Positions 38,348-41,167 of a stretch of DNA of 64,000 bases are shown piece by piece. Position 1 is the first letter of the stretch, and every line of letters starts with the position of its first letter. Source of the stretch: Neptunomonas japonica JAMM 1380 (lineage in GTDB: Bacteria > Pseudomonadota > Gammaproteobacteria > Pseudomonadales > Balneatricaceae); assembly GCF_016592555.1 (NCBI RefSeq), contig NZ_AP014546.1, forward strand, positions 1,240,001 to 1,304,000, written 5' to 3'. Below the pieces are notes generated by a model. The model saw only the letters and a list, made by a program, of their open reading frames with translations, had not been told where the DNA came from and did not search any database. The position numbers were made by a program, and so were the translations under genes.

Positions 38348-39502
38348 ATGACAACACACCTATCAGATATACAGCTAGTTGGTTTTGAAAAAGCGGACTT
38401 ACCTTTAGTTAAGTCTGTTTTAGCTGATATGAACTCTGGTACGAGCTGTTCTGTATCAGCGGTAAGCGCCCCGCATTTTAAGCACTTTGGTATTTGTGTC
38501 TTATTTGTTTCCAGTGGATCTGATTTAGAGCAATTGGCCGATTTGCTGAGTGATGACGGGCGATTTCCTATCGTACTTGTTTTATCTAGTAGTAGCGATG
38601 TCTCTGTGATTAGGGCTTTGAGAGCGGGCGCAGATGATGTTTTTTATCTGGAAAGCCTGCAGTCAGAATATGAGGAGTTTATAAGCTCCCTGCAAGCAAA
38701 GTTGACTCGATGTCGCCTGCTATATGAAAGGTTGATTTATCGAGAAGGGTTAGAGGCATCCCTAGAAGAGCTTAAGGATGACCAGTACGCCGCTTTTCAA
38801 GTGCAAAATCGTTTGCTTCCAGTTAAAAAACAAGTAATACAGAATATTGAGTATCAATATAGCATTACGCCTTCTCTTATTGTAAGTGGAGACTTTGTTG
38901 ATGTTCTGCCTATCAATAATGAGCTTACCTTATTTTATCTGGCGGATGTCTCTGGTCACGGAGCATCATCAGCGTTAGTAACGGTGCTTCTTAAAAATAT
39001 AACCAGTCGCCTGCTTCGAAACTTTAGGCGTGACTCAAGTTATGACATCCTGTCGCCTTTAAAAACTCTTAATCGTATAAATTCTGAACTATGTTCTTTG
39101 GCTTTGGATAAGCATTTAACTATCTTTGCTGGTTTGATCAATAACACAGATAATACGCTTACTTATGCCGTAGGTGGGCACCATCCGATGCCTGTGTATA
39201 AGTCGTCAAGTAGTATGTTTGTGTTGGAGGGGCGGGGAATGCCGGTTGGTTTATTTTCGGATGCTGTTTTTTCACAAAATCAGATAGAGTTAGATACGGA
39301 GTTTTCACTGTCTGTCTTTTCCGATGGCGTGTTGGAGCTTTTGCCTCAAAGTTCAATTTCTGAAAAAGAGCAAGGTCTTTATGAGTGGCTAGAGAGTAAC
39401 AGTGCAGATTTAGAAGTACTGAAATCTTATATATTTGATTCAAGTGAGCATCTGGAACAGTATCCTGATGATATTACCATAATGACTGTGTCGAGAGTTT
39501 AA
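38348..39502 (+). CDS. PP2C (SpoIIE-type) phosphatase with degenerate receiver domain
   Basis: 384 residues. A CheY-like fold at 1-120 is followed by a helical linker and a PPM/SpoIIE serine phosphatase domain (about 155-384). The metal sites are visible: GDFVDV, ADVSGHGASS, SDGVLE and DDITIM. In the receiver the phosphoacceptor Asp is absent (ICVLFVSSG), as are the usual acidic pair and the Lys. It most likely dephosphorylates the STAS protein encoded 2 bp downstream. The arrangement matches the RssB/RssC pair of Pseudomonas, including the flanking mlaA and tal-dusA genes. Confidence 0.87.
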   Translation: MTTHLSDIQLVGFEKADLPLVKSVLADMNSGTSCSVSAVSAPHFKHFGICVLFVSSGSDLEQLADLLSDDGRFPIVLVLSSSSDVSVIRALRAGADDVFYLESLQSEYEEFISSLQAKLTRCRLLYERLIYREGLEASLEELKDDQYAAFQVQNRLLPVKKQVIQNIEYQYSITPSLIVSGDFVDVLPINNELTLFYLADVSGHGASSALVTVLLKNITSRLLRNFRRDSSYDILSPLKTLNRINSELCSLALDKHLTIFAGLINNTDNTLTYAVGGHHPMPVYKSSSSMFVLEGRGMPVGLFSDAVFSQNQIELDTEFSLSVFSDGVLELLPQSSISEKEQGLYEWLESNSADLEVLKSYIFDSSEHLEQYPDDITIMTVSRV

Positions 39503-39504
39503 TC

Positions 39505-39987
39505 ATGAGTCTGGGCTCAATTTTTTATGCTGTTGTAGATAACCACTATGTCATTAAATTTGTTGGTGAAGTGCGCTTAACGCTGTGTTCGTCTTTGGAT
39601 ACTCATATTGAGCGGATACTATCATCAGATCAGTGTGACCAAGTGTTAGTGGATTTAACAGAAGCAACTTGTCTTGATAGCACGACTTTTGGACTTATAG
39701 CAAAGCTAGCGATACGTGCCAAGAATAAGGAATTCCCTACGCCTGTTTTAGTGTCGACGCACGATGATGTGACGAAAACTTTATTGAGTATGGGGTTTGA
39801 TCATATTTTTGTTTTACTTGAGTCTTTACCCAAGACTCAATGTGAATTGCAGCATGTTCCGGTAGTGCAAGAGTCCGTTGAGGCAACTCAGCTTCGTATT
39901 ATTAGTGCCCATAAAATTTTAATGTCGTTAAATGATTCAAACTATGAAGCATTTAATAATCTGATTAGTGTGTTAGAGCAAAAATAG
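39505..39987 (+). CDS. STAS-domain anti-sigma factor antagonist
   Basis: 160 residues. A STAS domain (about 8-105) carries the phosphorylatable serine at position 59 in TCLDSTTFGLIAKLA, followed by a helical tail of 50 residues. Unphosphorylated antagonists of this type bind an anti-sigma or partner kinase; the phosphatase two bases upstream should control its phosphorylation. No kinase or anti-sigma gene is in the window. The non-coding RNA locus begins about 45 bp after its stop. Confidence 0.88.
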   Translation: MSLGSIFYAVVDNHYVIKFVGEVRLTLCSSLDTHIERILSSDQCDQVLVDLTEATCLDSTTFGLIAKLAIRAKNKEFPTPVLVSTHDDVTKTLLSMGFDHIFVLLESLPKTQCELQHVPVVQESVEATQLRIISAHKILMSLNDSNYEAFNNLISVLEQK

Positions 39988-40021
39988 GACTTTTTCCTAT
40001 AGCCTCGATTTATGCAGTCTG

Positions 40022-40027
40022 TAGAAT
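40022..40027 (+). promoter_or_regulatory. Candidate -10 of the Rsm-like RNA
   Basis: TAGAAT, about seven bases before the proposed RNA start. No good -35 lies at 16-18 bp, which would suit an activator-dependent promoter. I did not find a clear GacA box (TGTAAG-N6-CTTACA) upstream. Confidence 0.45.
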
Positions 40028-40033
40028 AACGGT

Positions 40034-40170
40034 TGTCAGGGATGCAGCAGGGATGTTGATTTAACGAACGGAATTGTTCGTCTGGCCATCGCATCAGGAT
40101 TGTTGTGATGATTTACATGGATGTGAACGAAGGGCTCGTTGCAGGATGCATTTAGAGCCCTTTATTTTTT
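40034..40170 (+). ncRNA. RsmY/RsmZ/CsrB-like regulatory RNA
   Basis: About 135 nt with no open frame and six GGA motifs, at 40040, 40051, 40070, 40097, 40119 and 40144. Several sit in hairpin loops: ACGAAC-GGAATT-GTTCGT, CATCA-GGATTGTTG-TGATG, ACA-TGGA-TGT and TGCA-GGA-TGCA. The contexts (CAGGGA, ACGGA, CAGGA, ATGGA) match the ANGGA target of CsrA/RsmA. An intrinsic terminator ends the transcript. Length and motif count agree with RsmY and RsmZ. The expected role is to sequester CsrA/RsmA and so relieve repression of its mRNAs. Start and end are estimates from sequence. Confidence 0.8.
40131..40170 (+). terminator. Terminator of the Rsm-like RNA
   Basis: AGGGCTC at 40131-40137 pairs with GAGCCCT at 40155-40161, followed by TTATTTTTT. 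The loop contains a small hairpin presenting the last GGA. Confidence 0.85.
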
Positions 40171-41134
40171 ATATGCTTACTTCGTGGCTTGCTAGTACTT
40201 GTTCTAACTTTACCTGATCCGCTGCGAAATTCCTTATACCTTCCGCTAGTTTTTCTGTTGCCATTGCATCTTCATTCATTAACCATCGAAAAGTTGCTTC
40301 GTCATTATCTGGAATGGCGATCTCTGAAGTAGCTGTTTCTGTGCTTAGCTTTTGAGGTAATGCAGCATGAGAGTTTTCTAGTTCGCTCATTAGTTGTGGG
40401 CTGATGGTGAGTCGATCACAACCCGCAAGGCACTGGATTTCAGTAATACTTCTAAAGCTGGCACCCATCACAATGGTTTTATAATCATTTACTTTATAAA
40501 AGTTATAGATGCTTGAAACAGAGACTACACCAGGATCTAATTCGCCAGAATAGTCTTGTTCAGGTTGCTTCGCTTTATACCAGTCTAAAATGCGTCCAAC
40601 AAAAGGCGAGATCAAGTAAGCGCCTGCATCGGCACAGGCAGCGGCTTGTGCAAAGCTAAAGAGCAAAGTTAGGTTACAGTTAATGCCTTCTTTTTCTAAA
40701 ATTCGGGCTGCTTGTATGCCTTCCCAAGTTGATGCAATTTTTATTAAGATGCGATCATTGCTGATGCCTGCATCGTTATATAAGCGAATGAGTTGGTGTG
40801 CTTGTTCAACTGTCGCAGCGGTATCAAAAGATAGGCGGGCGTCCACCTCGGTAGAAATCCTGCCAGGAATTATTTTAAGAATCTCTAGGCCGATTAAAAC
40901 GCTTAGTTTTTGGGTCATCAAAGAGAGCTGTGTTTTAGGCTCTTGGCTTTGCTCATATGCCCACGCTTTGGCTTGGTCAAGCAAAGGGCTATAGATAGCT
41001 AGGCCAGCTGCTTTGAGTAGCAGTGATGGGTTTGTGGTTGCATCCACGGGCGTGAATTGGCTGATAGCCTCTATATCACCCGTATCGGCAACTACGGTTG
41101 TCATTGATTTAAGTTGCTGCAGTTGGCTTTCCAT
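40169..41134 (-). CDS. tal: Transaldolase
   Basis: 321 residues, TalB type. It transfers a dihydroxyacetone unit in the non-oxidative pentose phosphate pathway. The Schiff-base Lys falls at residue 132 in [11 protein letters not shown], exactly as in E. coli TalB, which supports the ATG at 41134 (N-terminus [20 protein letters not shown]). An ATG five codons upstream is possible. Other signatures are [26 protein letters not shown] and [12 protein letters not shown]. It is 33 bp from dusA and probably shares its transcript. Confidence 0.95.
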
Positions 41135-41167
41135 GGGTTGGATTTCCATAAATTATCTTTTGGTGAA

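Follow-up and report, generated by a model that had tools for sequence, protein, structure and literature searches.

The rssC-tal intergenic region

We analyzed a 64,000-nucleotide stretch of the genome of Neptunomonas japonica JAMM 1380 (the window; coordinates given without a contig are positions within it). An earlier note, made from the letters alone, had placed a non-coding, RNA-like stretch between a STAS gene and tal. This was borne out, as 40034-40170 is intergenic, with the stop codon of rssC (39985-39987) upstream and the end of the convergent tal gene at 40169. The rssC gene is predicted to encode an RssC-like STAS protein and follows a gene predicted to encode an RssB-like protein; both proteins score under the cut-offs of the corresponding NCBIfam models (RssC_Pseudo, 172 bits with a cut-off of 250; RssB_Pseudo, 260 bits with a cut-off of 700). 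The genes at the locus are:

38348-39502, + strand: RssB-like protein with a SpoIIE-type phosphatase domain (Pfam SpoIIE, 98 bits)
39505-39987, + strand: RssC-like STAS protein, rssC (Pfam STAS); its stop codon is overlapped by a palindromic box
40035-40172, + strand: predicted CsrA-sponge sRNA gene, about 135 nt (fold, GGA exposure, orthologs, covariation)
40169-41149, - strand: transaldolase, tal, the convergent neighbor (TIGR00874, 480 bits)

The 5' end of the sRNA (40035) was inferred from the -10 element and the 3' end was set in a U-rich run, where it overlaps the last bases of tal.

GGA motifs and predicted fold

The earlier note had counted six GGA motifs in ANGGA contexts and one more in a terminator loop. 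There are six in all, starting at 40040, 40051, 40070, 40097, 40119 and 40144 with the terminator-loop copy included, and four of the six are in strict ANGGA context. Dinucleotide shuffles of the sRNA contained at least six GGA in 158 of 2000 cases and at least four ANGGA in 14 of 2000, and elsewhere in the 64 kb windows of 138 nt hold up to seven GGA, two of them also with four ANGGA. The GGA count alone is thus only mildly unusual. The 158 shuffles are the point in favor of a chance GGA cluster between convergent genes with no RNA gene, a disfavored reading to which we give next to no weight; against it are the conservation of the RNA in 12 other genomes, covariation that none of 500 shuffles equaled and the association of 54 of 79 box sites with GGA-rich sequence, all described below.

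The fold is a stronger signal than the number of GGA motifs. The predicted free energy is -45.5 kcal/mol compared with -34.0 (sd 3.7) for shuffled sequences (z -3.1), and one of 200 shuffles did as well. The GGA bases, most of which the earlier note had placed in hairpin loops, have a mean probability of being unpaired of 0.84 versus 0.40 in shuffles, none of 60 being equally high. The predicted elements are:

40045-40058, + strand: 5' hairpin CAGCA-GGGA-UGUUG, displaying a GGA (fold)
40064-40081, + strand: second hairpin, ACGAAC ... GUUCGU around a GGA (fold)
40087-40110, + strand: hairpin 3, stem CAUCGCA/UGUGAUG with a GGA in the loop region (covariation)
40112-40127, + strand: hairpin 4, with a UGGA loop (fold, local folding of orthologs)
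40129-40172, + strand: intrinsic terminator with a nested UGCA-GGA-UGCA loop and U-rich tail (fold, covariation)

The minimum-energy structure pairs the leading G of the second hairpin's GGA with U, and the pairing of this hairpin is kept in close relatives only. The terminator with a GGA-presenting loop that had been described is present as a stem of GAAGGGCUC/GAGCCCUUU, a loop bearing GGA and then the U-rich tail. It is absent from the list of a simple terminator scanner, we think because its loop is longer than 8.

Conservation and covariation of the RNA

Synteny beside rssC found orthologs better than a DNA search with the sRNA region, which matched 9 of 116 family genomes (this genome, five of the same genus and three weak matches elsewhere, L009-L011). 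By synteny the RNA next to rssC was found at 13 distinct loci including the window, that is in 12 further genomes, with lengths of 134-151 nt as cut. These are six loci from the genus Neptunomonas, two from Pontibacterium, two from Marinobacterium (one uncultured, one cultured), two from Neptuniibacter and one from an Oceanospirillaceae MAG. Judged by the STAS protein (95% identity), the closest genome with a species name is one of Neptunomonas japonica. Records with the same sequence were collapsed (L012, L013 and L014 repeat L004, L005 and L006). The tal gene follows the RNA at 12 of the 13; at the exception, L020, it is not within the locus. We left out L022, a match to merely 18 query residues, and L009-L011, which have no detectable rssC or tal, although L009 matches our covariance model of the rssC-linked RNA (R1) at E 7.5e-8. 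At E 0.01, R1 matched 24 of the 390 genomes of the order; 10 of these belong to the family, and the 14 from other families score 24-33 bits.

GGA exposure was above the shuffle mean in all 13 orthologs, with shuffles equally high in 0/60 to 5/60 cases. In the 13-row alignment, 96.4% of cells are paired over the 15 pairs counted in hairpin 3 and in the terminator, and 9 of the 15 have compensatory changes on both sides. Hairpin 3 contributes such changes in five of six counted pairs (93.6% of cells paired) and the terminator in four (98.3% of cells paired). The covariation score was 0.485 versus 0.270 for shuffled alignments, with 0 of 500 as high; kinship inflates this shuffle test, and slid versions of the structure, a control that preserves kinship, scored at most 0.234. 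The apical part of the terminator carries GGA in 12 of 13 orthologs and GGU in L017. Hairpin 4 is shifted between clades in the alignment, so we examined it by constrained local folding and left it uncounted; an equivalent was found in 12 of 13 orthologs, the exception being L007 as cut. The 5' half of the RNA is less conserved in its pairing, and since some 5' pairs hold in close relatives only, we claim covariation just for hairpin 3 and the terminator. The GGA hairpins are kept in relatives with compensatory changes, and conservation together with covariation is decisive support for an RNA.

These patterns also bear on the idea of a base-pairing (Hfq-type) RNA in which the GGA motifs serve as seeds or as decoys resembling an anti-Shine-Dalgarno sequence. 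A terminator with a U-rich tail would suit such an RNA, and CU-rich mRNA might pair with its GGA loops. We give this very little weight because GGA is preserved in the loops while the stems vary, and because a second RNA in this genome has GGA motifs and the box in common with the first yet is missed by a covariance model built on that first RNA.

A palindromic box in place of a -35 element

No sigma-70 -35/-10 pair was found on the + strand in 39850-40300, and TAGAAT has no matching -35. Two other elements precede the RNA:

39984-40000, palindromic (no strand): 17-bp box ATAGGACTTTTTCCTAT (ATAGGA-N5-TCCTAT), conserved, a proposed activator site centered at about -43
40022-40027, + strand: -10 element TAGAAT, 21 bp past the box (spacing of 21-23 in 13 of 13 orthologs)

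A box of the type WTARGA-N5-TCYTAT is found at 12 of the 13 rssC-linked loci and L017 has one imperfect half-site; a degenerate form is used at L008, L015-L017, L020 and L021. The -10 hexamers are TAGAAT, TAAAAT or TAACAT, and the box is centered at -38 to -44 from the assumed 5' end across the 13 loci. The box and the -10 spacing would fit the geometry of an activator-dependent promoter.

The region lies directly after rssC, reads the same way and has a terminator at its end, as would be expected of the 3' UTR of the rssBC operon or an RNA derived from it, with the terminator GGA there by chance. This deserves little weight, given the spaced box and -10 element between rssC and the RNA at 13 of 13 loci, the identical promoter architecture ahead of RNAs away from rssC and the covarying hairpins.

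A second predicted RNA beside thiD and the box across genomes

The genome contains eight TAGGA-N5-TCCTA sites compared with two for a reversed control. Of the seven other sites, the one at C1:3637543 has nine GGA in the 200 nt that come after it, and it has a CATAAT -10 element at the identical 21-bp spacing and a terminator hairpin with a GGA loop. It is flanked on one side by a TPP riboswitch and thiD and on the other by what reads on inspection as a glycosyltransferase-like gene. This RNA folds only slightly better than its shuffles, of which 15 of 200 did as well (z -1.55). In an alignment of seven representatives (four from this genus, three from genus g5; row L165 stops before its terminator) four GGA motifs are invariant in all seven. 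Model R1 left the thiD-linked RNA (L030) unmatched even at E 10.

Among the 114 family genomes the exact box, ATAGGA-N5-TCCTAT, occurs in 43, belonging to 12 of 16 genera, with 100 sites versus 41 for the reversed control (our sum of the table). The exact box is absent from the other 71, which may have a degenerate form or none. Of 74 box sites (a set that includes one contig taken twice), 54 have six or more GGA within 200 nt on one side, with a background of 4.4% per 200-nt window. For a stricter count we required six or more GGA in 200 nt together with a -10-like hexamer on the same side, 19-27 nt past the box, and examined 81 of the 100 sites, 79 of them distinct after two with identical flanks were dropped. 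By this rule 54 of the 79 qualified, compared with 19 of 4020 background sides, and 25 did not. The qualifying sites are from genera g1 (11), g2 (14), g5 (7), g7 (1), g8 (5), g10 (14) and g11 (2); the g7 site (L129) has an atypical box center and may be incidental. Four of the non-qualifying sites (L117, L136, L137, L147) have 8-12 GGA and no -10 by the rule, six (L125, L134, L142, L149, L152, L158) have five GGA and a -10, and the others lie ahead of slyD-like or exported-protein genes or beside nothing evident. With a slightly different window, a -10 element was found at an offset of 20-26 on 50 of 56 GGA-rich sides versus 10 of 56 opposite sides.

Two box-plus-RNA units stand in tandem at L106, L109, L113, L114, L115 and L155, with further tandem units at L149, where the second unit has five GGA, and at L169, beside rssC. 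The thiD-linked locus of genus g2 (L106, L109, L111, L113, L114, L115, L117) has, in the interval from thiD to the glycosyltransferase-like gene, either one or two GGA-rich RNAs marked by the box, and a TPP riboswitch is present in L106, L109 and L113, the ones scanned. At L144 (G055:C21) a GGA-rich, RNA-like side lies on the - strand of the box and tandem repeats of about 60 nt, each with GGA motifs, lie on the + side.

Other box sites are of a different kind. At L025, L167 and L168, in three genomes of the genus Neptunomonas, the box lies ahead of a conserved non-coding stretch with few GGA and an FKBP/SlyD-like gene, possibly another target of the regulator that would bind the box. The exact box L028 (G000:C1:1898574-1898590) has a glyoxalase-like gene on one side and, on the other, a divergent gene resembling a chemotaxis receptor, both named by inspection.

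There was no excess of the exact box outside the family among the 381 order genomes. It was found in 22 of 364 non-family genomes, with 23 sites versus about 50 for the reversed control by our count; being fewer than the control, these sites were judged to be chance.

CsrA, a BarA-like kinase and a GacA-like regulator

A CsrA/RsmA gene is present, with two csrA matches above the Pfam cut-off (L001 and L002). The L002 protein has 66 residues from ATG and its gene comes after one that reads as lysC by inspection. L001 (G000:C1:1547446-1547601, - strand) is a second, longer csrA with a cysteine-rich C-terminal extension, and its neighbors look mobile or phage-like on inspection.

The earlier note also implied a Gac/Rsm-type switch. 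The part of this that stood is a BarA/GacS-like kinase and a diverged UvrY/GacA-like regulator; the exact classical GacA box is absent. The kinase is a hybrid with an sCache_4 domain over cut-off and HisKA, HATPase and receiver domains. Its best NCBIfam match is BarA at 530 bits, under the equivalog cut-off of 890, and the next is LetS at 375. The best match in the genome to the NCBIfam UvrY/SirA/GacA model is L031 (160 bits with a cut-off of 280), and none of the 114 family genomes has a match over this cut-off. There is one match to L031 per genome at E 1e-40 in 102 of the 114, and the top five UvrY/GacA scores in the family (207-215 bits) lie among these matches. L031 is 37% identical to E. 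coli UvrY and its relatives 33-45%, with the other regulators examined in this genome at 22-34%; L032, whose best family is MctR, is close behind L031 at 34%. In a careful tree of the regulators the deep forks stay open and L031 lies within them.

In E. coli, uvrY, uvrC and pgsA are neighbors. The uvrC gene of the present genome has no GacA-like neighbor, and in G101 an L031-type gene directly follows two genes that by inspection read as uvrC and pgsA, an arrangement comparable to that of E. coli. L031 is probably a relocated, diverged GacA, and it would be the binder of the box. At five loci (L224, L226, L228, L229 and L231) a GacA-like gene lies near a KfrA-like gene by inspection, unlike the uvrC neighborhood; at the first four of these an unknown protein of about 154 residues or longer is encoded between the two.

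The classical site, TGTAAG-N6-CTTACA, has no exact copy in this genome, and its exact sites in the 114 family genomes number 12, compared with 12 for the reversed control (our count). The box could belong to a different regulator, either another NarL/FixJ-type protein or an unrelated palindrome binder, so that the RNA is a CsrA sponge that answers to a signal outside Gac. We regard this as possible, though doubtful. It would agree with the likeness of the box to the RcsAB box and with the three genomes (G043, G058 and G113) that have box hits and no L031 match at E 1e-40. It would also agree with the differences from TGTAAG-N6-CTTACA in half-site, spacer length and position (PMC4682653, PMC4950607; excerpts). 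Set against it are the finding that the best UvrY/SirA/GacA match is a one-per-genome regulator, L031, and the role of BarA-UvrY orthologs in driving CsrA-inhibitory RNAs in many gammaproteobacteria (PMC7652899, excerpt).

Discussion

The fold, the GGA display, the conservation and the csrA genes make a CsrA/RsmA-titrating RNA, as the earlier note had proposed, the best predicted reading, and we consider it very likely that the rssC-linked gene encodes a CsrA sponge RNA with its own box-driven promoter. This view draws on what can be read from the genomes, namely the fold, conservation, covariation, the box, the -10 spacing, the link from box to GGA-rich RNA and the csrA, barA-like and gacA-like genes. 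From these we infer transcription of the sponge RNA, its binding of CsrA and a signal that controls it.

In the mechanism we propose, 40035-40172 would be a free-standing Csr/Rsm sponge RNA gene of about 135 nt whose six GGA sites, mostly in hairpin loops, would bind CsrA dimers and so free CsrA-repressed mRNAs. The genome would contain at least two such genes, one beside rssC and one beside thiD, and both promoters would have the palindrome ATAGGA-N5-TCCTAT in place of a -35 region. RNA polymerase would be brought in by an activator bound to the box at about -43. The leading candidate for this role is the GacA/UvrY ortholog, diverged as it is, after phosphorylation by the BarA/GacS-like kinase; that a GacA ortholog is the activator we put at roughly even odds.

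A bolder reading, to which we give a probability of about 0.45, is that DNA-level rewiring of the Gac/Csr switch took place in one marine family. In most genera examined the GacA ortholog would have left the uvrC locus, its recognition would have changed from TGTAAG-N6-CTTACA to ATAGGA-N5-TCCTAT and it would activate from the -35 position. The box would then be a portable promoter module on many dissimilar sponge RNAs, several of them in tandem, and on a few protein genes. The finding added here is a lineage-specific box, a proposed operator, that marks these RNAs, most likely a Csr/Rsm sponge-RNA set driven through it.

With little sequence in common, Csr/Rsm sponge RNAs are difficult to detect. 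Rfam misses the RNAs described here, and a signature of fixed box plus spacing detects them directly, so that the Csr switch can be inventoried for the first time in Neptunomonas and its relatives. The evolution of a master operator, with joint change in a global regulator and in the sites it targets, becomes testable.

Comparison with known systems

No Rfam family matched the 64-kb window at gathering thresholds. The RsmY, RsmX, PrrB_RsmZ and CsrB models, with which the earlier note had suggested checking the RNA, and the CsrC model gave no match up to E 10 in 39700-40500 (801 bases), where there were unrelated sub-gathering hits only. At gathering, no Csr/Rsm family matched any of 19 loci including the second RNA; the scan returned six TPP riboswitches and one rRNA fragment. 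The rssC-linked RNA is thus no member of the Rfam RsmY, RsmZ or CsrB families, and with no Rfam match and no exact GacA box it is not literally an RsmY or RsmZ with a Gac box. Every class feature that sequence can address nevertheless supports the prediction that it works like RsmY, RsmZ and CsrB.

The RNA is like RsmY, RsmZ and RsmX of Pseudomonas in its similar size (RsmZ is 116 nt and RsmY 124 nt; PMC9308961, excerpt), in its GGA motifs in loops and in the GacS-like, GacA-like and CsrA set in the genome. It is unlike RsmY and RsmZ in having no Rfam match and no exact TGTAAG-N6-CTTACA, the UvrY/GacA site (PMC4682653, PMC4950607; excerpts), in the genome. The position also differs, as the Neptunomonas box is at about -43, whereas the GacA site is at -75 in rsmY and -196 in rsmZ of P. 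aeruginosa (PMC4950607, excerpt) and in E. coli csrB the UvrY inverted repeat is much more distant, at -183/-182 (PMC4682653, excerpt). Like CsrB and CsrC of E. coli, the RNA is a multi-GGA CsrA sponge (predicted here) present more than once per genome; unlike them, with 22 and 14 GGA (PMC11882849, excerpt), the rssC-linked RNA has six.

We found no description of the palindromic box or of a Neptunomonas sRNA in the open-licence PMC papers searched. The LetA site of Legionella is TNAGAAATTTCTNA, 14 bp, a sequence found in no paper of the literature searched; it has a similar look, and the Neptunomonas box has a 15-bp core with TAGGA/TCCTA half-sites. The RcsAB box of enterics, with the consensus TaAGaatatTCctA, resembles the Neptunomonas box, is one base shorter and drives capsule and flagellar genes. 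It is bound by RcsB with RcsA (PMC5829831, excerpt). LetA, a GacA-type regulator, is linked to two sponge RNAs, RsmY and RsmZ (PMC3048289, excerpt). Csr sponges of marine gammaproteobacteria include Pf1-Pf3 of Pseudoalteromonas, with 25, 21 and 9 GGA, and CsrR2 of Alcanivorax, with six unpaired GGA (PMC11882849, PMC9788540; excerpts). These belong to other host lineages, and the Neptunomonas RNA is likened to them by description.
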